From Pseudomonadota bacterium (GTDB lineage: Bacteria > Pseudomonadota > Alphaproteobacteria > SP197): 46,151 bases of DNA. This document shows, one piece after another, positions 7,181 to 20,516 of this stretch. Each line of letters begins with the position of its first letter. The first letter of the stretch is position 1. The translations under genes were made by a program, and so were the position numbers. The DNA lies in contig JBCCIS010000041.1 in the NCBI GenBank assembly GCA_039028155.1, forward strand, positions 1 to 46,151. The letters run 5' to 3'. Under the pieces are notes generated by a model. It did not search any database, was not told the origin of the DNA, and saw nothing but the letters and a program-made list of their open reading frames with translations.

Positions 7181-8172
7181 CCGCCGGTGACGCTCATGTG
7201 GCGTCCGACCGCGGGCTTGTTCTGGCGCCGGTCGATGACGAAGTCGTGGCCCTTCGGCTTGCGCGCGATGGCCTCGTGAATGGCCTCGATCAGCGGACCA
7301 TTGCTCTCGCTTGAGCGCAGCGGCGTCTTCAGGTCCGCCGCGTCTTCCTGGCCCAGGCACATATAAAGCGTGCCCGTGCAGGTCAGCCTGACGCGGTTGC
7401 AGCTTTCGCAGAAGTTATGGGTCATCGGCGTGATGAACCCCAGCTTCTGGCCGGTCTCGCTAATCTCCACGTAGCGCGCTGGTCCGCCCGTGCGGTAGGG
7501 AATGTCGGTCAGTGTCCAGTTTTTCTTCAGGCGGCTTCTGACGACCGAAAGCGGTAGGTACTGGTCGGTACGATCACCGTCGATGTCGCCCAGCGGCATG
7601 GTTTCGATCAAGGTCAGGTCGAAGCCGTTGTCGCCGCACCAGGCGATCATGGTGTCGTACTCGTCCTCGTTGACCCCTTTCAGGGCGACCGCGTTGATTT
7701 TGATCGCGAGGCCCGCTGCCTTGGCCGCATGGAGCCCTTCCATGACCTTCTCGAAGCTTCCCCAGCGCGTGATCGCCTTGAACTTCGTGGGGTCGAGCGT
7801 GTCGAGGGATATGTTCACGCGTCTCACGCCAGCGGCAAAAAGTTCCTCGGCGAAACGGGGCAGCTGGGTGCCATTGGTCGTGACGGTCAACTCCTCCAGG
7901 CCGTTGCCCAGATGGCTGCCGATGCCATGGAACAGCTGCATGATCCCCTTGCGCACCAGGGGCTCGCCGCCTGTCATGCGGATCTTCTCGACGCCCAACT
8001 CGATAAAGGCCGCGGCGACCCTCTCTAGCTCCTCCAGTGTCAGCAGGTCCTTTTTCGGCAGGAACGTCATGTCTTCGGACATGCAGTAGACGCAGCGGAA
8101 GTCGCAGCGATCCGTCACCGAAATGCGGATGTACGAAACCTCACGTCCAAAAGGGTCGACCAGTCTGCTCAT
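7177..8172 (-). CDS. moaA: GTP 3',8-cyclase (molybdenum cofactor biosynthesis MoaA)
   Basis: Radical-SAM enzyme for the first step of molybdopterin synthesis, converting GTP to 3',8-cyclo-GTP (331 aa). The SAM-cluster motif C-x3-C-x2-C is Cys23, Cys27 and Cys30 in [19 protein letters not shown] follows. The second 4Fe-4S cluster that binds GTP is seen in [15 protein letters not shown] (C-x2-C-x13-C). The protein ends in Gly-Gly, the conserved MoaA C-terminal tail. It is monocistronic here and convergent with hyi, with no room for an intergenic terminator. Together with mobA, fdhD and the formate dehydrogenase genes in this window it fits a molybdoenzyme theme. Confidence 0.96.
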
Positions 8173-8267
8173 CTACCGCCCTGTCAGGGGATTAACGACA
8201 TCGTTGGCTTTCTTATATATGCGAGCCCTTCCGGCCGCACAACCAGACTGTTTTTGGGGATTTGACC

Positions 8268-8903
8268 TCACGAAACCCGCCAAACCCAACAACGATGGCG
8301 GATGTGGGGTTCGGACCCGATGGATGGGAACGGTTCGCCGGCCTCGACCAGCCGCCAGCTGCCCGCCTGCTCGAGCTCAAGGTGCTTTCCGGCGAATTCC
8401 GGCGGCTCCTCATCGGCCCGCAAGGTGTAGAGGATCAGGCCACCAGGTTTTGTGATCCGCACGAGTTCGTCCAGCGACGAGGCCGGCGCATGATTGGGTG
8501 TGAAGACGCCGCATACCGTCACGGCATCATAAGTGTTGCTCGCATAGGCAAGTGACTTGCCCAGTTCCATCAACTGGCAATCCCGATAAATGCCTTTGGT
8601 CTTCGCGATCTCAAGCATGCCCTCGGAGAGATCGTTGGCGTCCATGGTCGTGAAACCCCGCTCGGCGAGCTGATCGCCCAGCATGCCGGTGCCGGCACCG
8701 GCATCGCACAAGGTGGCGGTGGGGTCGACGAGGCGGGCGACGACGTCGGCAAGCGCGAGGTGCCCGCGCCATCCGACATCGCTTTCCATCGCCGCGTCGT
8801 AAACGGTCGCGGCGTCGTCATAGCGCTCGATCAGCTGGTCCTGGTCCTCGGCGAGATAAAACCCTTTCGGATCGGCCTTGGTATGTTTCGGGCTGATGGC
8901 CAT
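8268..8903 (-). CDS. Class I SAM-dependent methyltransferase
   Basis: A 211-aa methyltransferase. The start was chosen at the ATG at 8903 because GGGAGA precedes it; the frame runs upstream to 9212, but that extension crosses the divergent promoter region. Motif I is LCDAGAGTGMLGDQL, motif II contains the acidic MDANDLSEGML, and motif IV/V is YDAVTVCGVFTPNHAP followed by LVRITKPGGLILYTL. The arrangement resembles the WBSCR27/METTL27-like or UbiE-like small-molecule methyltransferases. The substrate is unknown. It is separated from moaA by about 95 bases and is probably transcribed from the gap shared with the acyl-CoA synthetase. Confidence 0.83.
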   Translation of the reverse strand: MAISPKHTKADPKGFYLAEDQDQLIERYDDAATVYDAAMESDVGWRGHLALADVVARLVDPTATLCDAGAGTGMLGDQLAERGFTTMDANDLSEGMLEIAKTKGIYRDCQLMELGKSLAYASNTYDAVTVCGVFTPNHAPASSLDELVRITKPGGLILYTLRADEEPPEFAGKHLELEQAGSWRLVEAGEPFPSIGSEPHIRHRCWVWRVS

Positions 8904-8959
8904 GGCGCTCTCCCGTGGCTCGGTGCGTCTGCCAACAGTTTTGGGCGCGCCATCCGTTA

Positions 8960-8978
8960 TTGCAAATTGCTTTTGCAA
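8960..8978. promoter_or_regulatory. Repeated TTGCAA hexamers in a divergent promoter region
   Basis: Two TTGCAA hexamers, each a perfect palindrome, sit seven bases apart (8960-8965 and 8973-8978). They lie in the 242-base gap between the divergent methyltransferase gene and the acyl-CoA synthetase gene. The gap has no other convincing gene. The arrangement looks like a binding site for a dimeric regulator, but no matching regulator gene is in view; this is inference only. Confidence 0.3.
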
Positions 8979-9145
8979 CCAGCTCCTGCTTAGGTTCTCC
9001 CGCCGCAAGGGCAGGGACGAGCATGACAGCGAAAAACGAGACCACGGTCGGCGGACCGCGCGCACCAGACAGCGGTTTTCTGTTCCGCCAATAGGCGGTC
9101 CCAAAACGACCCACCCCCCATATCGAGACATTACGAGACACCTGC

Positions 9146-11248
9146 ATGTCGACCGTAAAAGACGGCACGTCCCGGCTTGATCATCACTGGATGGCGCCAC
9201 TCCTGGCGCCACGCACCATCGCCATTGTCGGCGCCTCCAACCGAGCGGGCAGCGTTGGCGCCAACGTGATGGCCGCGCTGCAGTCGGGCCGCTACGACGG
9301 TCAACTTTGGCCGATCAACCCGCGCTACGAAAAAGTCGCCGAGCTCGATTGCGTGGGATCGATGGCCGACCTGCCGTCGCCGCCGGATCTCGCTGTACTG
9401 TCGGTGGCGTCCGAACGCATGGAGAGTGTGTTTGCCGATGCGATCGAGCAAGGCGCGCGGTCGCTCGTCATCTTCGATCCCTGCATGATCGAAAACGACA
9501 GCGAACCCAAATTGCTCGACCGTCTGAAAGCGCGCGCGAAAGAGGCGCGCATCCCCGTATGCGGCGGCAATGGCGTCGGTTTCTATAACTTCGTGTCTCA
9601 GACTTTCGCCTGTTTCTCGCGACCGATTGTGAACGAAGTCGGACACATCGCCGCATTTTGTCATTCCGGTTCCGTGTTCGGCATGGTCGGCAAGTTCGAC
9701 CCCAGGTTTCGCTTCAACTTGCTGACGTCACAGGGCCAGGAAATCAATGGTTCGGTGGCCGAGTACATGGACTATGCGCTGGAGCTCGACTCGACGCGGG
9801 TCCTGGCGCTGTTCCTGGAATCGGTGCGCGATCCCGAGCGCTTTCTGACCGTGCTGGAAAAAGCGCGGGACAAGGACGTGCCCGTGGTCGCGACCAAGGT
9901 CGGGCGGACCGCACGCAGTGCCTTTCTGGCGACCACGCACTCCGGCGCCGTAGCCGGCAGCGACAGCGCGTTTGATGCGGTGTGCGACAAGTTCGGCGTG
10001 CTGCGAACCGATGACCTTGACGGTCTGATGGCGACCGCGCAGATCCTCGCCATGCCGCATCGCGTCGGACCAGGAGACCTGGCCGCCGTGCTTGACTCCG
10101 GCGGTCTGCGCGAACAGTTGATCGACATGGCCGGCGACATGGGCGTGCCGCTTGCCGATCTGACAGATGACACCACCAAGAAACTGCGCGGCCGGTTGCC
10201 GCACATGTTGGAGGCGGTCAACCCGGTTGACGCTGCGGGGCCGCTGCGTGACGACTATGAGGACATCATCATCGACAGCGTCGGGTTGGTTGCCGGTGAT
10301 CCCAATGTCGCGATCACGGCGCACGAGATCTATATCACCGATACGATCGACGCTGATACGCCGCAGGCCGATGCGGCGCTCACCATGGCCGAACGGTTCG
10401 GCAAGCCCTTCATCGTCATCAACAGCTTTGGCACAACATCGAATGCCCAGGTGGCGAACCGGCTTATGGACGGCGCTGTGCCATTGATCAATGGCCTGCG
10501 CCCCGCGTTGACCGCTATTCGCCACGCCTTTGCCTACCGCGAGAGCAGGAATGCCGAGGATGCGCCGCCAGAAACAGTCGATGGCGCTATTGTCGCGGCA
10601 TGGCGCGAAAGGCTCGGCGGCGGCGCCATCGACGAAAGCGCGGGACTTGCCATGTTGAGCGACTTCGGCGTGCCGGTCGCGCATTCGACGACGTGCGCGA
10701 CATTTGATGAGGCCAAGGCGGCCGCCGCGGCAACGGGCTATCCGATTGTCATGAAGACGGCCGAGCCCGGCATCGCGCACAAGTCCGATGTCGGCGGCGT
10801 ACGTTTGGGAATCTCTGATGAGGACGGACTGGCCGAAGCCTATGGCGACATCTCCGGCCGATTAGGGCCAAGCGTCACGGTCGCGGCCATGGTGCCGCGC
10901 GGCGTCGAGCTCGCGTTCGGCATGGTGCGTGATGTCCAATTCGGTCCGATCGTCATGGTCGGGGCCGGGGGTACGTTGATCGAGAGTCTCGATGACCGCT
11001 GCTTCGGCCTGCCGCCGTTTGGCGAGGCGACGGCGCGGCGTCTGCTCGGCCGGCTGAAACTGGCGCGGCTGCTTCAGGGCGTACGCGGTGCGGCGCCTGC
11101 GGACATGGATGCCCTGGCCTTCGCATTGTCGCGGTTTTCCGTTCTGGCCGCCGCGCTCGGTGATCTCGTGCCCGAGATCGACGCCAACCCGGTGATCGCC
11201 GGTCCTGATGGCGCGGTTGCCGTCGATGTCCTGGTCGAGGTTGGCTGA
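9146..11248 (+). CDS. ADP-forming acyl-CoA synthetase (acetate--CoA ligase family)
   Basis: Single-chain (alpha-beta fused) NDP-forming acyl-CoA synthetase, 700 aa, which interconverts acyl-CoA + ADP + phosphate with acid + CoA + ATP. The N-terminal CoA-binding Rossmann domain starts TIAIVGASNRAGSVGANV. Two succinyl-CoA-synthetase-like ligase domains follow, with phospho-histidine regions in AFCHSGSVFGM and ATTHSGAVAGS. From about residue 490 there is an ATP-grasp domain (GYPIVMKTAEPGIAHKSDVGGV, MVGAGGTLIE, EIDANPVI). The acyl substrate is not predictable. It is 38 bases upstream of fdhD on the same strand, so it heads a likely operon with fdhD-mobA-tauE. That company hints at one-carbon or oxalate/formate-type acids, but this is only inference. 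Confidence 0.88.
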   Translation: MSTVKDGTSRLDHHWMAPLLAPRTIAIVGASNRAGSVGANVMAALQSGRYDGQLWPINPRYEKVAELDCVGSMADLPSPPDLAVLSVASERMESVFADAIEQGARSLVIFDPCMIENDSEPKLLDRLKARAKEARIPVCGGNGVGFYNFVSQTFACFSRPIVNEVGHIAAFCHSGSVFGMVGKFDPRFRFNLLTSQGQEINGSVAEYMDYALELDSTRVLALFLESVRDPERFLTVLEKARDKDVPVVATKVGRTARSAFLATTHSGAVAGSDSAFDAVCDKFGVLRTDDLDGLMATAQILAMPHRVGPGDLAAVLDSGGLREQLIDMAGDMGVPLADLTDDTTKKLRGRLPHMLEAVNPVDAAGPLRDDYEDIIIDSVGLVAGDPNVAITAHEIYITDTIDADTPQADAALTMAERFGKPFIVINSFGTTSNAQVANRLMDGAVPLINGLRPALTAIRHAFAYRESRNAEDAPPETVDGAIVAAWRERLGGGAIDESAGLAMLSDFGVPVAHSTTCATFDEAKAAAAATGYPIVMKTAEPGIAHKSDVGGVRLGISDEDGLAEAYGDISGRLGPSVTVAAMVPRGVELAFGMVRDVQFGPIVMVGAGGTLIESLDDRCFGLPPFGEATARRLLGRLKLARLLQGVRGAAPADMDALAFALSRFSVLAAALGDLVPEIDANPVIAGPDGAVAVDVLVEVG

Positions 11249-11286
11249 GCCTTGGCGTCGGCGCGACGGGCTCCCATACTCTCACG

Positions 11287-12162
11287 ATGACCGATTATCT
11301 GGTTCGCCCCGATCCCGCCGATCCGCGCCTGACACGCCGTGTCAGCGGCCGTGACCACGAGGGCAAGGATATTGAGACCGCCGTCACCATGGAACGGCCC
11401 TTGACGCTGTTCCTGAACGGCCAGGAGATCGTCACCATGATGACGATCGGCGACTACCCGGAGTACCTCGCGGTCGGGTATCTCCTGAACCAGAACATGC
11501 TGCGGCCCGATGACGAGATCACGGCGATCGATTACGACGACGATGTCGAAACTGTGGTCGTCAGGACCGCGCGGAAGACCGATTTCGAGGACAAGCTGAA
11601 GCGCAAGACGCTGACCTCTGGCTGTGCCCAGGGAACCGTGTTCGGCGATCTGATGGAAGAATTCGACGACGTGACGCTGGACGCCGACGCGCGGATCAAG
11701 ACGTCATGGCTCTACACGCTATCCAAGACGATCAACACGACGCCGAGCCTTTATCTGGAGGCCGGCGCCATCCACGGCTGCGTTCTCGCGCACCAGGACC
11801 GGCCGCTTGTTTACATGGAGGATGTCGGTCGACACAACGCGGTCGACAAGATCGCCGGCTATATGATGACCGAGAACATCGCGCCAGAAGACAAGATCTT
11901 CTACACGACCGGGCGGCTCACCAGCGAGATGGTGATCAAGACGGTCAAGATGCGCATCCCGATTCTGGTGTCGCGCTCGGGTTTTACCGCGTGGGGTGTC
12001 GATCTGGCGCGCCAAGCCGATTTGACCTTGATCGGCCGCATGAAGGGCAAGCGGTTTCTGGTGTTGTCCGGCGAGGAGAGGGTGGTCTATGACGCCGATC
12101 CCGCTAGTCTAGGCGAGGAACCATCACGTCATCGTCGCAAGGGGGCCGAAGATGACAACTGA
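11287..12162 (+). CDS. fdhD: Formate dehydrogenase accessory sulfurtransferase FdhD
   Basis: FdhD carries sulfur from a cysteine desulfurase to the molybdenum cofactor so that formate dehydrogenase becomes active (291 aa). The family landmarks are ERPLTLFLNGQEIVTMM, YPEYLAVGYLLNQ, the cysteine loop TSGCAQGT (Cys113) and the GCVLAHQDRPLVYMEDVGRHNAVDK region, followed by YTTGRLTSEMVIK and SRSGFTAWGVDLA. E. coli FdhD has a C-x2-C loop; here only one cysteine remains, a variant seen in other alphaproteobacteria. The start ATG at 11287 lies 38 bases after the acyl-CoA synthetase, and its last codons overlap mobA by 11 bases. Its client enzyme is probably FdsA at 16048-18816. Confidence 0.95.
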   Translation: MTDYLVRPDPADPRLTRRVSGRDHEGKDIETAVTMERPLTLFLNGQEIVTMMTIGDYPEYLAVGYLLNQNMLRPDDEITAIDYDDDVETVVVRTARKTDFEDKLKRKTLTSGCAQGTVFGDLMEEFDDVTLDADARIKTSWLYTLSKTINTTPSLYLEAGAIHGCVLAHQDRPLVYMEDVGRHNAVDKIAGYMMTENIAPEDKIFYTTGRLTSEMVIKTVKMRIPILVSRSGFTAWGVDLARQADLTLIGRMKGKRFLVLSGEERVVYDADPASLGEEPSRHRRKGAEDDN

Positions 12163-12805: not shown

Positions 12806-13552
12806 ATGGCCGAGACGGCCGTCATCCTGTTCGTCACTTTCCTTCTTGCCGGCACGGTCAAGGGCGTCGTCGGCTTGGGGTTCCCGACGGTCTCGTTGGC
12901 GCTTCTGACGCTTGCGTTCGGCTTGAAGGACGCGATGGCGATGCTGATCGTGCCGTCGCTCCTCACCAACATCTGGCAAGCCGGTGTCGGTGGTCAACTT
13001 GGCGCGATACTCAAACGGTTTTGGCCGCTGCTGATCACGACCTGCATCGGCGTTTTTGCCGGCGCATGGGTCCTTGCCGGTTCCGACGCTGTCGGGCTGA
13101 CCGTTCTGTTGGGCGTTCTCCTGATCGCCTACGCCGTCTACGGCCTGGCAACGCCCGTCTTCCCGTCGCCCGGACGGCATGAGACTTGGCTCTCGCCGGT
13201 GGTCGGTCTCTTGAGCGGCGTCGTGACCGGCCTTGTCGGCATCTTCCTGATGCCAAGCGTGCCTTATCTGCAGGCCATCGGTCTCAAGCGCGATCACCTG
13301 GTGCAGGCGATGGGCGTGTTCTTCACCGTCTCGACGGCGGCGCTCGGTGTCGCGTTGGGCGGTTTCGGCGTCATGACCGGCGATCTCGCCGTTTGGTCCG
13401 TAGCCGGCATTGTGCCCGGTATCCTCGGCATGGCGATCGGCCAGCGCATCCGCCAACGTCTCGACGAGAACCGGTTTCGACTGGTGTTGCTGGTCGCGAT
13501 TCTGGTGATGGGCCTGGTCGTTGCCGTAAAGGCGCTTGCTTTGGAATGGTAG
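12806..13552 (+). CDS. TauE/SafE family anion permease
   Basis: Inner-membrane permease of 248 aa with about seven to eight hydrophobic helices and two family repeats (FLLAGTVKGVVGLGFPTVS at the start and SPVVGLLSGVVTGLVGIFLMP in the second half). TauE/SafE proteins move sulfite, sulfoacetate or other small organic anions. As the last gene of the run after acyl-CoA synthetase, fdhD and mobA, it might serve an acid substrate of that pathway, but this is inference. The last 13 coding residues before the C-terminal tail, AILVMGLVVAVKA, reappear in a truncated copy at 15100-15165, on the far side of the AT-rich segment that begins right after this stop codon. Confidence 0.87.
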   Translation: MAETAVILFVTFLLAGTVKGVVGLGFPTVSLALLTLAFGLKDAMAMLIVPSLLTNIWQAGVGGQLGAILKRFWPLLITTCIGVFAGAWVLAGSDAVGLTVLLGVLLIAYAVYGLATPVFPSPGRHETWLSPVVGLLSGVVTGLVGIFLMPSVPYLQAIGLKRDHLVQAMGVFFTVSTAALGVALGGFGVMTGDLAVWSVAGIVPGILGMAIGQRIRQRLDENRFRLVLLVAILVMGLVVAVKALALEW

Positions 13553-13565
13553 TCAGCACCTAGGC

Positions 13566-14618
13566 CTAATCTGATGCCAGTTCGAAACGTTCCGGCAAAC
13601 TCTCGATCTGTTCATTCACATCTCGTTGCAGCCGGAAGAACATTAGACCAATTGCCTCGGTTATGGCCGTGGATGCCAGACCAACAATACCGCTTGCAAA
13701 CATTTCTTGAGTATTGTCTGCAGAAAAAACAAAAAATAGTGTAACAACAAAAACAATCACACCAAGAAAGATGCACAAGACCCCTAACGGAAATGTCCAC
13801 CTTTTATCCCTAACAACTGTTTCAGTAAGAGTCCGAACGACATTCTCTCTGAATAGTTTATCTTCTATTGCCGCTTCTCGCTCCAGGCCGGCACCGCGAA
13901 CGAGGCGTTGATACTCCATTGGAATGTCGTCAATCTTTTTGTCTATGCTTCTGAACTTGAGGTAGCGATTGATTATCCAAAACATCACAGCGGCGCCATA
14001 GATAGAGCCGGCAGTTAGAAGGTAATGAGTAGGGGACTGTTGGTATGAACTTGCACCAGATTTTGCAATCGAGCTTGAATTGACAAAGGCGTACAGTAGT
14101 AGAGAAACAAAAGCGAATGCAATGATTAGGGAGTATGCCAACCACTTACTAGCATTATGTTTTTGGATCTGCAGTTTCTGAGCGGTTTCGTCAATGTACA
14201 CCCTAAGAATTCGAACCATTTTCTCGGCGTCATTCTTGTCATCTGATGCAAGTATTGGCTGCATGCGAAGGTCCAAAAAATCGACGCTGTTAATGTAACC
14301 TTCTCGTGTTCGACTAAGGATTCTGTGTCTTACCAGTGAAAATACAAAACTGATTGCAAACATGTTTGTCAGAAATCTTACATTAAAGTCATTATACAAA
14401 GAAACAATTGGTTTCCCAGATACAACCAAAGGATATGCAACAAAGAAAGCATATACTATGAAGAGTATTGTGATTGACCAGGCGGCAAGAACACAATACT
14501 GCTGACGCTTAAAGCGGTGTCGCCAAATCTCTTCGCGCCTCGCTAAAAATCTCTGTGCAAGTGCGCTTGCGCTACCAGTTTCATTGGCGTCTGGGATCTC
14601 AATTTGGCCTGATACCAT
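13566..14618 (-). CDS. AT-rich multi-spanning membrane protein of unknown function
   Basis: A 350-aa protein, start chosen at the ATG at 14618 (GGGG seven bases upstream; TTG at 14630 is an alternative). I count six hydrophobic segments in three pairs: about residues 41-65 and 80-97, 160-182 and 200-217, 275-302 and 312-332. Each second helix ends in an aromatic/basic run (FSLVRHRIL, FWIINRYLKFR, MFFRLQRDV), which suggests three copies of a two-helix hairpin. The last hairpin, with FASGIVGLASTAITEAIGL, faintly resembles the two-helix domain attached to bacterial TRADD-N proteins; this is a weak visual match. Base composition is much richer in A and T than every neighbour, which suggests acquisition from elsewhere. 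No partner gene is present. Function unknown. Confidence 0.75.
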   Translation of the reverse strand: MVSGQIEIPDANETGSASALAQRFLARREEIWRHRFKRQQYCVLAAWSITILFIVYAFFVAYPLVVSGKPIVSLYNDFNVRFLTNMFAISFVFSLVRHRILSRTREGYINSVDFLDLRMQPILASDDKNDAEKMVRILRVYIDETAQKLQIQKHNASKWLAYSLIIAFAFVSLLLYAFVNSSSIAKSGASSYQQSPTHYLLTAGSIYGAAVMFWIINRYLKFRSIDKKIDDIPMEYQRLVRGAGLEREAAIEDKLFRENVVRTLTETVVRDKRWTFPLGVLCIFLGVIVFVVTLFFVFSADNTQEMFASGIVGLASTAITEAIGLMFFRLQRDVNEQIESLPERFELASD

Positions 14619-15093
14619 GGAAAGCCCCAATGACTAAATCTCTTGCAGACATGATGTAACACGCGCAAATCAACTTTCTATCGAACTCGTACTAATGACC
14701 AGCCTTTGGCTAACTTAGTCGTTTGTCGGTACTTTTCGTCGGTCAACGAGGCGATAGTTCATTTTGTATACGGAGGCGGAGTACAAAATCTTAAAGACGG
14801 AAATGACCTCCTACCCTCTCTTTTATCTTGCAAGTGTAGCGGGTCGGGATCTCGGTCGTTCGCTCCCCACATGCGTTTCATTTGGCGCAGTTACACTAAA
14901 ACTGTTTGTATTTTGTAGCAAGTTTATCACGCAACGATATGTTTGTCGCCTGTGTATCGCGCATTGATTGTTGTTCTGAGTTCACAATACAAGGTAGGCG
15001 TCGCGGTCGAGCCGCGGCTCTTGACAGCGCTTGCATAGATGCGTTGTGAGGAGCCAGATTGGTCGGTTGTGTTACTTGCATCACAATGTCTAG
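14619..15093. other. AT-rich intergenic stretch without a convincing gene
   Basis: About 475 bases continue the AT-rich composition of the membrane-protein gene. Two overlapping plus-strand frames of 60-70 codons (from 14706 and 14764) are open, but they have no good ribosome-binding site or recognisable domain and are cysteine- and serine-rich in a way that suggests chance. No tRNA, integrase, transposase or clear terminal inverted repeat is visible. The promoter of the minus-strand membrane gene should lie near its left end. GC-rich sequence resumes near 15095. Confidence 0.5.
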
Positions 15094-15099
15094 CACCTT

Positions 15100-15165
15100 C
15101 GCCACGTCACACTCGGCGCCATTCTGGTGATGGGTCTCGTCGTCGCGGTAAAGGCGATCGGCTAG
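15100..15165 (+). pseudogene. 3' remnant of a second TauE/SafE gene
   Basis: A 21-codon fragment ends in TAG at 15163-15165. It encodes AILVMGLVVAVKA, identical over 13 residues to the C-terminus of the intact permease at 12806-13552, with weaker similarity for a few residues upstream (R-x-V-x-L spacing kept). Over 39 aligned bases (15118-15156 against 13498-13536) there are five differences, all at third codon positions. This means the fragment descends from a functional paralogue or homologue rather than from a recent exact duplication. Everything 5' of it is AT-rich insert. Simplest reading: an insertion or deletion replaced the body of a tandem tauE copy. Confidence 0.6.
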
Positions 15166-15175
15166 TCCGTCAACA

Positions 15176-15979
15176 TCAACCGAAACGCGCCATCGTCACA
15201 ACGGACTGGTAGTCGACATGCAAGACGCCATCGTCGGACGCTTGGGGGTGAAGTGCATCTTTCAGATGCGCCATGACCTCGGACTCGCTGCGCTCGCGCA
15301 CGGCGACCTTGAAGTGGGAGGTCGAGCGGACGTAGCCGATGAAATCATCGACGGTGCGCCGCCACGTCCAGACGTCGACAAGCTGTCGGACGTTGCGGGC
15401 GGCGGCGTGTCGCTGTAGCTCGCCCTCGCAGTCGAAGTCGCGATAGCCGCGGTGGTAGCCGGGCGCCAGCCTTTTCAAGGCACCTTCCAGCGCGAGAGCG
15501 ACCGGGCGATCCATGATGCGGTTATTGTAGAGAACCGCCAATGCGCCGTCCGGGCGCAGCACGCGGGCACACTCGTCATAAAAGGCGCTGCGATCGAACC
15601 AGTGGGCGGCCTGGCCGACTGTGATGAGATCGAGTGAACCATCCGCGACGGGCAGGCTTTCGGCGTGCGACGCGAACCACGAGAGATCCAGCTCGGCAGG
15701 GGTTGTGTCGGCCGCTGTGCGCAGCATGTCCGAACCCGGTTCGCCACCGACGATGACGGCGTCCGGAAACTGCCGACGCAACGCGCGGGTCAAGATGCCT
15801 GTGCCGCTGCCCAGATCGAGCACATAGCGCGCATTGCCGGTGTAGCTGGCTAGGGCCTGGAGGGCACCTTCGCTGTAGTGCGGTCGGAACTGATCGTAGT
15901 CGTCAGTCAGTCCGTCGAAGATCTTCCTTGGGTCGGCCCAGTGCTGCGACCAGACGTGCTTGCCATGAGGCGCGGTCAC
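15176..15979 (-). CDS. Class I SAM-dependent methyltransferase
   Basis: A 267-aa methyltransferase. Motif I is VLDLGSGTGILTRAL, followed by the acidic motif II in VIVGGEPGSDML, then ESLPVADGSLDLITVGQAAHWFD and the post-motif ECARVLRPDGALAVLYNN. The pattern matches UbiE/Coq5-like and trans-aconitate-methyltransferase-like enzymes; the QAAHWFD segment is typical of the group that includes yeast Trm9-like and Crg1-type proteins. The substrate is unknown. The C-terminal about 110 residues probably form the substrate cap. It lies 68 bases downstream of fdsA on the same strand and could be read through from it. Composition is normal, unlike the insert just beyond its 3' end. Confidence 0.84.
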   Translation of the reverse strand: MTAPHGKHVWSQHWADPRKIFDGLTDDYDQFRPHYSEGALQALASYTGNARYVLDLGSGTGILTRALRRQFPDAVIVGGEPGSDMLRTAADTTPAELDLSWFASHAESLPVADGSLDLITVGQAAHWFDRSAFYDECARVLRPDGALAVLYNNRIMDRPVALALEGALKRLAPGYHRGYRDFDCEGELQRHAAARNVRQLVDVWTWRRTVDDFIGYVRSTSHFKVAVRERSESEVMAHLKDALHPQASDDGVLHVDYQSVVTMARFG

Positions 15980-16047
15980 GGCGCGTTAACCGTTGCAAGA
16001 ACAGGACCCGGATCATCTGCGGTGACGATCCGGCGGGCCATCGCTGC

Positions 16048-18816
16048 TTACTCAGCCGCCTCGGGAACGGTCGCCTTATCGACGCGCACGGCGCAGAACT
16101 TGAACTCCGGGATCTTGCCGTAGGGATCGAGCGCCTGATTGGTCAGCATGTTGGCTGCGGCTTCGGCGTAGCAGAACGGCACGAAGATCATGCCGGGCTG
16201 GATGCCGGCATCCAGACGCGCCTTGGCTTCGATGACGCCGCGCCGCGTCGAGATGCGGATCGGTTCGCCGGGTGCGATGCCGAGACGTTCCATGTCGACC
16301 GGGGCCATGGTCGCGATGGCTTCCGGTTCCAGCGAGTCCAGATAGGTCGCGCGCCGTGTCATGGCGCCGGTGTGCCAGTGCTCCAACTGACGACCGGTGG
16401 TCAGCACCATCGGATAATCCTCATCGGGCAATTCGTCCGGCGACACGATGTTCGCGGGAACCATTTTGCCGCGACCCGACGGCGTCGGGTATTCCTCGGA
16501 AAAGACGATCGGCTGACCGGGATCGTCTTCGGAGAGGCATGGATAGGTGACCGCGTCCTCGCGCTCCAGGCGCTCCCAGGTGATGCCGGTGATCGAGTGC
16601 ATGGAGCGGCGCATCTCGTCATAGACGTCGGAGACGTGATCGTAGCGCCAGTCAAGACCGATGCCGCGCGCCATCTGCTGAATGATCTCCCAGTCCTGGC
16701 GCGCCTCGCCAGGCATCTCGACGGCTCTTCTGCCGCGTTGCACTTGACGGTTGGTGTTGGTCACCGTGCCGTCCTTTTCCGGCCAGGCGCTGGCCGGCAG
16801 GACGACGTCGGCATGCATCGCCGTCTCGGTCAGAAACAGGTCCTGGACGACCAGAATGTCGAGCTTGGCCAGCGCGTCGCGCGCGTGGTTGGCGTTGGGG
16901 TCCGACATCGCTGGGTTCTCGCCCATGATGTACATGCCCCGGATCGCACCCTCGTGGATCGCGCCCATGATCTCGACCACGGTCAGGCCCGGTTCCTTGT
17001 CCAGAACCGCGCCCCAGAACTCGCTGAACTTGTCATGGACTTCTTCACTCGCGACCGGCTGGTAGTCGGGATAGACCATCGGAATCAGACCGGCATCGGA
17101 CGCGCCCTGCACGTTGTTCTGGCCGCGCAGGGGATGCAGACCGCTGCCCGCGCGGCCGGTCTGTCCGCACATCAGCGCAAGCGCGATCAGGCAGCGCGAG
17201 TTGTCGGTGCCGTGTACGTGCTGGCTGATGCCCATGCCCCAGAAGATCATCGCCCGTTCGGCCGTGCCGTAGAGGCGGGCGACTTCGATCAGAGTATCGG
17301 CCGGAATGCCGCAGATCTCTTCCATCGCCTCGGGTGAAAAGTCCTCAAGATGCTCTTTGAGCGCCTCGAAGCCTTCGGTCATGCCCTGAATGTACTGCTC
17401 GTCGTAGAGTTTCTCCTTCACGATCACATGCATGATCGCGTTCAACATCGAGACATCGCCGCCCGGTTTGAACTGCAGCATGTGTGTCGCGTGCTTTCTG
17501 AGCGCCTGGCCGCGGGGATCCATGACGATCAGTTTCGCGCCGTCCTTGACCGCCTGCTTAAAGAAGGTCGCTGCGACCGGATGGTTCTCGGTCGGGTTGG
17601 CGCCGATGACGATGAAGACGTCGGACTTTACAGCGTCGGTAAAGGGTGCGGTCACGGCGCCCGATCCAATCGTCTCCATCAGCGCAGCGACGGAGCTGGC
17701 ATGACACAGCCGCGTGCAGTGGTCGACGTTGTTGGAGCCGAAACCGGTGCGCACCAGCTTCTGGAACAGATAAGCCTCTTCGTTCGAGCCTTTCGCCGAA
17801 CCGAAACCGGCCAAGGCGCGTCCGCCATGCTCGTCGATGATCTTGCGCAGGCCGCCGGTCGCTTTGTCGAGCGCCTCGTCCCACGTCGCCTCGCGGAAAT
17901 GGGTCAGCGGGTTGCCGGGGTCCATGTCGAAGTCGCCACTTTTTGGTGCGTCATCACGCCGGATCAGTGGCTTGGTCAACCGATGCGGATGGTTGATGTA
18001 GTCGAAGCCGAAGCGGCCCTTGACGCACAGGCGGCCGTGATTGGATGGGCCTTCCTTGCCCTTGACCGCGACAATACGGTTGTCCTCGATCTGATAGGTG
18101 AGCTGGCAGCCGACGCCGCAATACGGGCAGACGCTGTCGACCTCCTTCTTCGGCTTGGCCTTACCGACGCCCTTGGCGTCGACCATGGTCGCGGGCATCA
18201 GCGCGCCGGTCGGACACGACTGCACGCACTCGCCGCAGGCAACACAGGTCGATTCGCCCATGGGGTCGTCGAAGTCGAAAATGATCTTCGCGTGGTGGCC
18301 GCGATTGGCCATGCCAATGACGTCGTTGACTTGGATCTCGCGACAGGCGCGGACGCAGCGGGTGCAGTTGATACAGGCGTCGAGGTTGACCGCCATCGCC
18401 AAATGGCTGAGGTCGGGCAGGTGCGTGCCTCGCGCCGGGAAGCGGCTTTCGTGAACCCCCATCTCGTCCGACCAATGCCAGAGCTCGGACTCCTGTGTGT
18501 GCGCGACATCGCGCTCCGGCTGATCGGCGACCAAAAGCTCCAGCACCATGTTGCGTGATGCTTCCGCGCGATCCGAGCCGGTCTTGACCACCATGCCCGG
18601 ATTGGGTTCGCGGATGCAGGACGCGGCCAGCGTTCGTTCGCCTTCGATCTCGACCATGCACAGTCGGCAATTGCCGTCGGCGCGGTAGTCGGCCATCTCG
18701 GTGAAACAGAGGTGAGGGATCGTCTTGCCGTGACGCTTGGCGACTTGCCAAATGGTTTCGCCCGGTTCAGCGGTCACCTCGTTTCCGTCGAGGGTGAAGG
18801 TGATCGGATCGCTCAC
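16048..18816 (-). CDS. fdsA: NAD-dependent formate dehydrogenase, molybdenum catalytic subunit
   Basis: Cytosolic catalytic subunit (922 aa) that oxidises formate to CO2 at a bis-MGD molybdenum centre. The order of domains is: N-terminal 2Fe-2S ferredoxin fold (about 1-80, CRLCMVEIEG); His-Cys cluster segment; two 4Fe-4S sites (CINCTRCVRACR and CVACGECVQSCPTGAL); the 4Fe-4S of the molybdopterin domain (CPYCGVGCQ, LCVKGRFGFDY); and the Mo ligand Cys371 in HCTRLCHASS, a cysteine rather than selenocysteine. The C-terminal pterin-binding domain closes with TGRQLEHWHTGAMTRR. The start GTG at 18816 has GGAGG upstream and overlaps the fdsGB stop (GTGA). FdhD and MobA for its maturation are encoded at 11.3-12.8 kb. 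Confidence 0.95.
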   Translation of the reverse strand: MSDPITFTLDGNEVTAEPGETIWQVAKRHGKTIPHLCFTEMADYRADGNCRLCMVEIEGERTLAASCIREPNPGMVVKTGSDRAEASRNMVLELLVADQPERDVAHTQESELWHWSDEMGVHESRFPARGTHLPDLSHLAMAVNLDACINCTRCVRACREIQVNDVIGMANRGHHAKIIFDFDDPMGESTCVACGECVQSCPTGALMPATMVDAKGVGKAKPKKEVDSVCPYCGVGCQLTYQIEDNRIVAVKGKEGPSNHGRLCVKGRFGFDYINHPHRLTKPLIRRDDAPKSGDFDMDPGNPLTHFREATWDEALDKATGGLRKIIDEHGGRALAGFGSAKGSNEEAYLFQKLVRTGFGSNNVDHCTRLCHASSVAALMETIGSGAVTAPFTDAVKSDVFIVIGANPTENHPVAATFFKQAVKDGAKLIVMDPRGQALRKHATHMLQFKPGGDVSMLNAIMHVIVKEKLYDEQYIQGMTEGFEALKEHLEDFSPEAMEEICGIPADTLIEVARLYGTAERAMIFWGMGISQHVHGTDNSRCLIALALMCGQTGRAGSGLHPLRGQNNVQGASDAGLIPMVYPDYQPVASEEVHDKFSEFWGAVLDKEPGLTVVEIMGAIHEGAIRGMYIMGENPAMSDPNANHARDALAKLDILVVQDLFLTETAMHADVVLPASAWPEKDGTVTNTNRQVQRGRRAVEMPGEARQDWEIIQQMARGIGLDWRYDHVSDVYDEMRRSMHSITGITWERLEREDAVTYPCLSEDDPGQPIVFSEEYPTPSGRGKMVPANIVSPDELPDEDYPMVLTTGRQLEHWHTGAMTRRATYLDSLEPEAIATMAPVDMERLGIAPGEPIRISTRRGVIEAKARLDAGIQPGMIFVPFCYAEAAANMLTNQALDPYGKIPEFKFCAVRVDKATVPEAAE

Positions 18817-20516
18817 GATACGTCCTCCGGAAAATACTTCATAACCGTCAAGATGGGGTTTGGCGCCGCCTGGCCCAAGCCGCAGATCGACGCATCGATC
18901 ATCGTCGTCGACAGCTCGCCCAAAAGGGCTGCGTCCCAAGGACCTCTCGACATCAGCTTCACCGCCTTCTCGCAGCCGACCCGGCACGGCGTGCATTGGC
19001 CGCAGCTTTCGTCCTCGAAGAACTTCATGAGGTTGATCGCGGCGTCCTTCATGTTGTCCTGGTCGGACAGAATGACGACGGCGGCCGAGCCGATCAGCGC
19101 GCCGTGGGGCTGCAGCGTGTCGAAGTCGAGGGGCACGTCGCCCAGCGAGGCCGGCAGGATGCCGCCCGACGCGCCGCCGGGCAGGTAGCCCTTGAACGTA
19201 TGGCCGTCGGCCATGCCGCCACAGTATTCGTCGATCAGTTCCTTCACCGTGATGCCGGCGGGCGCCAGCTTGACGCCCGGCTCCTTGACCCGGCCCGACA
19301 CCGAAAAGCTGCGTAGACCAACCCGCTCATGGCGGCCGTGCTGGGTGAAACTCTCCGGGCCGTTGTTCAGGATATCGGTGACCCAATAAAGGGTCTCGAC
19401 GTTATGGACCAGCGTCGGCTGGCCGAAGATGCCGATCTTGGCGACAAACGGCGGACGGTGACGGGGCAGGCCACGCTTGCCCTCGATCGATTCGATCATC
19501 GCGGACTCTTCACCGCAGATGTAGGCACCGGCGCCGCGCCGCAAATGGATCTTTGTGCGCTGATCGAGGCCCGCGTCGCACACCTTCTGGAGTTCCTTTT
19601 CTAGGATCTCCAAGACGGACGGGTACTCATCGCGCATGTAGATATAGACCGCCTCGGCCTCGACGACCCAGGCGGCGATCAGCATGCCTTCGATGAACTG
19701 GTGGGGCTTGCGCTCAAGGTAATAGCGGTCCTTGAACGTGCCGGGCTCTCCTTCGTCGCCGTTGACCGCCATCAGTCGCGGCGTCGTTTCCATGCGCACG
19801 AACTTCCACTTGCGCCCGGCCGGGAAACCGGCGCCGCCCAGGCCGCGAAGGTTGGAGGCCTCCATGGTGGCAATCAGGTCGTCGGGCTCGTGCTTGCCCG
19901 CCAGCACGTCACGCAGGAAGGCGTAGCCGCCGTCAGCGACATAGGCGTCGTAATCCTGGTAGTCGGGGATCGGCGCATCGAGGTCGCCGGCTTTAACGGC
20001 CGCTTCGATCGTCGCCCTGTCGGCGTGATCGATATCGTTGCGTCCGACTTTTGCGACCGGCGCCGTGTCGCAGCGTCCCATGCAGGGCGCGCGCACGACG
20101 CGGACATCGGGGCCGAGGTTGCCGTCAAGCGAGTCGATCAGGGTATCGGCCCCCATCATCTCGCAGGTCAGGCTGTCGCAAACCCGGATGGTGATCGGCG
20201 CGGGCGGTGTCTCGCCTTCCTTCACCACGTCAAAGTGATGATAGAACGTCGCGACCTCATAGGCCTCGGCCATCGGGATGCGCATCAACTCGGCCAACGC
20301 CTGCAGGTGACGCGCGGAGATGTGTTTGTAGCGGTCCTGGATCAGATGCAGATATTCAATCAGAAGGTCGCGGTCGCGCAGGCGGCCGTCCAGCAGCGCG
20401 CCGATTTCGGCGAGCGCCGTCGGGTCCGGTTGCCGGCCCTTGGCCGTTGTCCGGGTCTTGCGTTTGCCGGCGCCGGGATGGCGTCGTCGTCTTAGTTCGC
20501 CGGTAGCGGTCGTCAT
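18813..20516 (-). CDS. Formate dehydrogenase FdsG-FdsB fusion (NADH-reducing subunit)
   Basis: A 567-aa fusion of two subunits that are separate in Cupriavidus- or Rhodobacter-type enzymes. The N-terminal about 160 residues are FdsG/NuoE-like with a 2Fe-2S site (VCDSLTC and APCMGRC). After a short linker the FdsB/NuoF part begins: FMN site (LRGLGGAGFPAGRKW), NAD site (GAGAYICGEESAMIESIEGKRG), and a 4Fe-4S site near the C-terminus (ESCGQCTPCRVGC). It passes formate electrons from FdsA to NAD+. I chose the ATG at 20516; an in-frame GTG lies at 20525. The first 30 residues are Arg/Lys-rich. Stop and start of fdsA overlap. No fdsC or fdsD gene follows in the cluster. Confidence 0.93.
   Translation of the reverse strand: MTTATGELRRRRHPGAGKRKTRTTAKGRQPDPTALAEIGALLDGRLRDRDLLIEYLHLIQDRYKHISARHLQALAELMRIPMAEAYEVATFYHHFDVVKEGETPPAPITIRVCDSLTCEMMGADTLIDSLDGNLGPDVRVVRAPCMGRCDTAPVAKVGRNDIDHADRATIEAAVKAGDLDAPIPDYQDYDAYVADGGYAFLRDVLAGKHEPDDLIATMEASNLRGLGGAGFPAGRKWKFVRMETTPRLMAVNGDEGEPGTFKDRYYLERKPHQFIEGMLIAAWVVEAEAVYIYMRDEYPSVLEILEKELQKVCDAGLDQRTKIHLRRGAGAYICGEESAMIESIEGKRGLPRHRPPFVAKIGIFGQPTLVHNVETLYWVTDILNNGPESFTQHGRHERVGLRSFSVSGRVKEPGVKLAPAGITVKELIDEYCGGMADGHTFKGYLPGGASGGILPASLGDVPLDFDTLQPHGALIGSAAVVILSDQDNMKDAAINLMKFFEDESCGQCTPCRVGCEKAVKLMSRGPWDAALLGELSTTMIDASICGLGQAAPNPILTVMKYFPEDVS

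Follow-up and report, generated by a model that had tools for sequence, protein, structure and literature searches.

PMC5361080 cites reports of homology-facilitated illegitimate recombination from Acinetobacter, Streptococcus and Pseudomonas. The same paper describes the sequential displacement of T6SS effector genes, with orphaned Rhs 3' regions, and displaced effector genes in Vibrio cholerae. Integration of ICEs and IMEs beside the protein genes guaA, radC and dusA is recorded in PMC8627217. Integrase-free gene gain is usually invisible once complete, and the literature listings and passages searched nowhere treat stumps of gene tails between convergent genes as a class of their own. In this study, we analyzed a 46,151-nucleotide stretch of DNA (the window) from a draft genome of 118 contigs (G000). 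It holds a tauE locus that is probably, judging by its sequence, the scar of one horizontal gene gain by one-sided homologous recombination together with an illegitimate joint.

The locus begins with an intact tauE-like gene of the sulfite exporter TauE/SafE family (12806-13552, forward strand, 248 aa; PF01925, E 3e-27). It is followed by an insert of 44% GC (13553-15094, right edge approximate), which is missing from the family members G007, G013 and G015. The one gene of the insert (13566-14630, reverse strand) is convergent with tauE and encodes a 354-aa membrane protein with a match to PF20712 (E 1.8e-7). To its right lies an in-frame stump of a tauE 3' end (15095-15165, forward strand, left edge approximate), the frame of which reads HLRHVTLGAILVMGLVVAVKAIG and closes with the TAG at 15163-15165. 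Ten nucleotides separate this TAG from the stop of the native convergent neighbour, a class I methyltransferase gene (15176-15979, reverse strand; PF08241, E 7.2e-18) with 84% amino acid identity in G001, a relative of the same genus. The GC content of the window is 62%, and it falls from 0.63 to 0.43 at the insert, with best-fit breakpoints at 13536 and 14995; the GC3 of the insert gene is 0.41 vs 0.80 for tauE. Among 1646 1-kb segments of the G000 DNA scanned, in which adjacent stretches overlap by 1 kb, one had a GC content below 47%. An earlier note on this DNA had claimed about 1.5 kb of clearly AT-richer DNA with one gene between two tauE ends, which these figures bear out. It had also expected sharp steps in composition: the left step is sharp and in place, but the right one lies about 100 bp ahead of the stump.

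The left copy of the duplicated tauE end (13490-13534, forward strand) shares 38 of 45 nucleotides with 15112-15156. The best other 45-mer anywhere in the window reaches 26/45 on the forward and 27/45 on the reverse strand, and the ungapped score of the pair was equalled by none of 200 shuffles. Weaker homology extends to about 15095, and in frame to the TAG. The earlier note had counted five differences over the 39 bases of 15118-15156, all at third codon positions, and this count is exact. Six of the seven differing codons of the two tails are synonymous and one is nonsynonymous (P 0.005 relative to random change). The tails share no exact repeat longer than 14 nt (13499-13512 and 15121-15134). 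An artefact of the draft assembly, which the 118 contigs might suggest, is extremely unlikely: a 14-nt repeat is shorter than usual assembly k-mers, which makes misassembly unlikely, and four such loci with coherent flanks exist in the genome.

Comparison of the two tails with G001, which has 86-88% DNA identity around the locus, bears on which of them is native. The intact tauE shows 86% DNA identity to G001 up to 13512. In blocks of 20 codons its identity is 0.82-0.93 up to codon 220, and in an ungapped comparison it drops to 0.68 for codons 221-240 and to 0.37 for codons 241-249. The intact gene ends in ALALEW, unlike that of G001, and is three codons longer than both the stump and the G001 gene. 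The stump has the length to stop of G001. An exact 17-nt stretch is common to the stump and G001, and the left copy has part of it. At informative sites the stump agrees with G001 at nine and the intact copy at six; these counts are low, and the alignment is weak over its outermost 15 nt. A perfect duplication with later decay of the stump was rejected for tauE (P 0.002, assuming that 0.77 of private changes fall in the stump). Since the working copy is the more derived one and decay is rejected, it is most likely that the left, working tauE end came in with the insert. The right copy is best read as the displaced native tauE end, still beside its old neighbour, and not as a second gene. It had earlier been taken for a coding stump of a separate homologue; the synonymous differences support its coding nature, whereas its origin from a separate homologue is not upheld.

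Analyses of related genomes point to the same native arrangement. In G007, G013 and G015 of the same family, tauE and the methyltransferase gene are convergent and 39, 161 and 13 nt apart, respectively, in agreement with the proposal of the earlier note that the junction was left by integration. Exactly one tauE match (E<=1e-10) was found in each of the nine tauE-bearing genomes among 16 from the family. The native state is likely one tauE gene, tail to tail with the methyltransferase gene. The G001 junction holds a different gene, of 253 aa, 60% GC (ordinary composition) and weak methyltransferase-like similarity, and other ORFs occupy the junction in G009 and G006. No tail copy above shuffled sequence was detected at this junction in G001, G009 or G006 (133, 35 and 56 of 200 shuffles, respectively, reached the score). 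Of the nine tauE-bearing genomes, three have empty junctions and four, G000 included, have different genes there, G002 and G012 not being judgeable on their contigs; what lies at the tauE-methyltransferase junction varies across the family. Two further observations concern this junction. In G009 (L045:4959-7352) it contains a small nuclease-like (GIY-YIG-like) gene and a GMC oxidoreductase-like gene, both named by eye. In G003 (L049:5866-6036) all that was found between a MobA-like gene and the methyltransferase gene is 57 aa of tauE similarity (39% identity), which suggests decay of tauE.

The second proposal of the earlier note, replacement of a tandem tauE paralogue, fares badly in the same comparison. 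It would have most of a tandem paralogue lost and foreign DNA put in its place, and the coding-like right copy fits it, as does the M24 peptidase gene of a further locus described below, of which several relatives have two adjacent copies. However, none of the nine tauE-bearing family genomes has a second tauE, the stump has the G001 length to its stop and is placed where the single native end of the relatives is, and the M24 stump is 95% identical to its adjacent gene, in contrast to only ~71-76% for the tandem copies of relatives. We regard this paralogue reading as distinctly unlikely.

Residues 276-341 of the insert protein match CyanoTRADDas_TM (PF20712), the cyanobacterial TRADD-N-associated two-transmembrane domain, with 31.6 bits against a curated cut-off of 24.3. 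No TRADD-N domain occurs among the Pfam matches of the protein, and the accessible part of the TRADD-N paper (PMC8195603) does not describe the CyanoTRADDas_TM domain. PF20712 is present in three of 289 genomes of the class, G000 included. Among 385 class genomes, only G000 yielded the protein itself, and a phylum set of 398 genomes, which overlaps the class set, added two short matches (E 0.002 and 0.005). It had no match in PADLOC and nothing near a cut-off in NCBIfam; its best E-values were 0.018 in PHROGs and 0.31 among solved structures, and its AlphaFold model, computed without an alignment, is poor (mean pLDDT 50.4). A role of the protein in defence or cell death would thus be only a lead. 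Plasmids, phages and viral contigs (IMG/VR) gave no match for the insert gene at the sensitivity used, and an origin from any of them was set aside. There is no second copy of the insert in its own genome and no tRNA or Rfam match within it, and the longest inverted match between its 80-nt ends, looked at for terminal inverted repeats, is 6 nt.

Restoration of a gene end with synonymous differences is typical of site-specific integrative elements. The insert might accordingly be the remnant of such an element, which entered the 3' end of tauE and rebuilt that end from its own sequence, in the way of ICEs at some protein genes; the look of the locus fits this, and the identical 14-nt run could be the core. 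Against it, the ORFs of the 1.5-kb insert include no integrase, transposase or other mobility gene, the G001-like sequence of the stump goes on at the outer side of the 14-nt run, viral contigs lack the tail pattern, and such scars occur at four different host genes. An integrative element is, in our judgement, a highly improbable source.

Three more loci in G000 follow the same plan, namely an intact gene, a foreign gene, a stump of the 3' end of the intact gene and a convergent neighbour. In L068, an intact M24 peptidase gene (10348-11724, reverse strand) is followed by an APH-family insert gene (9351-10190, forward strand), a frameshifted M24 stump (~8938-9196; core match 180/189 nt) and a convergent methyltransferase ORF (8048-8941, forward strand), the stop of which overlaps that of the stump. 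In L122, an intact pseudopilin gene (15407-16162, forward strand) is followed by an insert of 43% GC with a 187-aa ORF, which lacks a Pfam match and appears membrane-bound by eye. The pseudopilin stump (16866-16917, 43/52 nt) lies 12 nt from a sigma-54 response regulator gene (16930-18354, reverse strand). In L123, an intact RF-1-domain gene (18547-18972, reverse strand) is accompanied by a 1019-aa NHL-repeat gene as insert (15371-18430, forward strand) and by an RF-1 stump (~15079-15217, 110/137 nt), 14 nt from a GcvT-like ORF (13781-15064, forward strand). At three of the four loci the foreign and the intact gene converge; in L122 both point the same way. Two of the four inserts are AT-rich (GC 0.44 and 0.43) and two are not (0.60 and 0.58).

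The G001 DNA examined at the places of L068, L122 and L123 contains neither insert nor stump. There, the M24 end is directly followed by a remnant of the methyltransferase end, the parts aligning to the pseudopilin and regulator genes are 84 nt apart, and a gap of 18 nt separates the RF-1 gene from a convergent ORF. The GcvT-like gene is also missing from the G001 RF-1 site, which suggests two successive gains at this site in G000. Several side observations were made at the M24 locus. The end of the methyltransferase ORF beside the M24 stump (L068:8814-8941) is a ~130-nt dispersed repeat with a core matching both strands; among the matches listed, it has many copies in G000, G001 and G012 and a few in G009. 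Because its last 130 nt are this repeat, the native end of the methyltransferase ORF is uncertain. In G001, the ~55 nt that follow the M24 gene (L071:1460-1514) match a stretch close to the end of the methyltransferase ORF (L068:8765-8819); these ~55 nt are possibly a gene-tail remnant of the opposite gene.

The four loci together bear on the main rival of the proposed gene gain, an insertion that duplicated its target. Here a long (~50-260 nt) duplication would have left two tails that were identical at first and later diverged mostly in the unselected stump. Such a duplication would explain why both neighbours stayed intact, and the M24 and RF-1 stumps are indeed the more derived copies (9:3 and 27:4, respectively), that of M24 being frameshifted; the RF-1 stump alone looks like an old, decayed one. 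Private sites summed over the four loci stand at 46:20, on which decay is not rejected (P 0.11). All four stumps end in CTAG, which makes up 12.5% of the stops counted in G000 (2e-4 for four); it could be a target preference, and was noticed post hoc. The codon differences speak against duplication. The synonymous to nonsynonymous counts are 6:1 for tauE, 4:2 for pseudopilin, 5:2 for M24 (before the frameshift) and 10:13 for RF-1, so that 25 of 43 differing codons are synonymous vs ~0.27 expected at random (P 2e-5). Under duplication plus decay, the synonymous count has P 0.04 for all four loci and P 0.005 for the 15 of 20 at tauE, pseudopilin and M24. At tauE, moreover, the tails differ synonymously and in length, the intact copy is the more derived and the insert has no transposase. 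Pairwise comparison of the four inserts, left ends with left ends and right ends with right ends (80 nt each), showed no common 8-nt word. Taken together, we hold target duplication to be unlikely. The 25 synonymous codon differences fit tails that diverged in two lineages before meeting, and the lack of common end words is as expected of recombination and not of a defined element.

The further loci came from a scan for direct repeats 0.3-6 kb apart in 80 stretches of 20 kb from G000 plus the window (1.646 Mb with overlaps, ~1.6 of 5.31 Mb), with G007, which is GC-richer, as the control. A total of 107 repeat pairs were obtained from G000 and 155 from the control, of which 57 and 109, respectively, were set aside as lying in the same ORF or being paralogue-like. 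Among the remaining 50 and 46, those with <=3 copies were considered (27 and 14), and multi-copy pairs (23 and 32) were dropped unseen. Four of the 27 own pairs, those of the window, L068, L122 and L123, were accepted as having the same plan. The pairs of L061 (88 nt), L105 (527-582), L106, L121, L130, L145 and L150 were inspected and not accepted; the remaining own pairs and all control pairs were judged from coordinates alone, and on coordinates no control pair was judged to show the plan. A 3'-end filter passed 10 of the 107 own and 11 of the 155 control pairs, nine of those 11 lying in one repeat-rich patch. In G007, the repeat-rich patch L161:1-5280 contains numerous direct repeats that overlap one another and are perhaps mobile elements. 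In L061 (7258-8320), a hydantoinase-like start region is repeated (73/88 nt) across a peptidase-like gene (names by eye), a second copy of which lies ~4 kb away (553/683 nt); these repeats are perhaps a diverged segmental duplication. A decoy scan of non-paralogous gene-end copies, which used crude gene calls and missed the tauE and RF-1 loci, showed no excess of downstream copies in G000: 7 lay downstream vs 6 upstream there (1217 genes), and 10 vs 6 in the control (391 genes). The filter and the decoy scan thus weigh against generalizing, and the recurrence is an observation and not a tested enrichment.

In the gene gain that we propose, the incoming DNA would have borne a related tauE end followed by a foreign gene. 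It would have paired with the resident tauE by homology, with a crossover inside the gene, and its non-homologous other end would have been joined illegitimately to the resident tauE, within the final ~70 nt. The two host genes would thereby stay whole, and the old tauE tail would be left as a stump. A few shared bases occur near 15095-15101 at the right joint, which shows no clear microhomology, and no donor genome in which the 354-aa gene follows tauE came to light. Such an outcome would be favoured between convergent genes that almost touch, as in this locus with its 10 nt, there being hardly room for a clean insertion. Where the genes are separated by <=14 nt, most of the other possible joints would disrupt one of them, and the events that survive may thus be expected to leave a tail stump. 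In light of the three further loci, the one-sided route was probably used repeatedly in G000. Alternatively, a dedicated and so far undescribed process of this lineage may insert single foreign genes between convergent genes, duplicating one 3' end (the CTAG stumps) with no encoded recombinase and with both neighbours surviving, which we think quite improbable. One short tauE stump led to three more in G000, and the recurrence is of more interest than the single scar. If one-sided recombination leaves such stumps of gene tails next to convergent genes, they could be read as its fossils and, counted across genomes, would tell how often flexible genes arrive by this route.

The locus can now be set beside the known systems. 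As in the ICE and IME cases of PMC8627217, the insertion stands beside a protein gene; unlike them, it has no integrase or conjugation genes, and several different host genes are involved. On the proposed reading it would share with homology-facilitated illegitimate recombination one homologous anchor, which the two divergent coding tauE ends fit, one illegitimate end and the gain of non-homologous DNA; foreign DNA with an empty site in relatives, a trait of such scars, is found at the tauE locus. Unlike in the reports of that process, recombination is here deduced from the scars that it would have left in an uncultured bacterium. As in the T6SS effector displacement of PMC5361080, new DNA with a homologous anchor would have pushed the resident 3' part downstream. 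The T6SS case displaces effector ends together with immunity genes, whereas the loci of G000 carry short stumps of ordinary genes at convergent junctions; by analogy, the mechanism proposed for tauE would be close to the one put forward there for T6SS effector genes.
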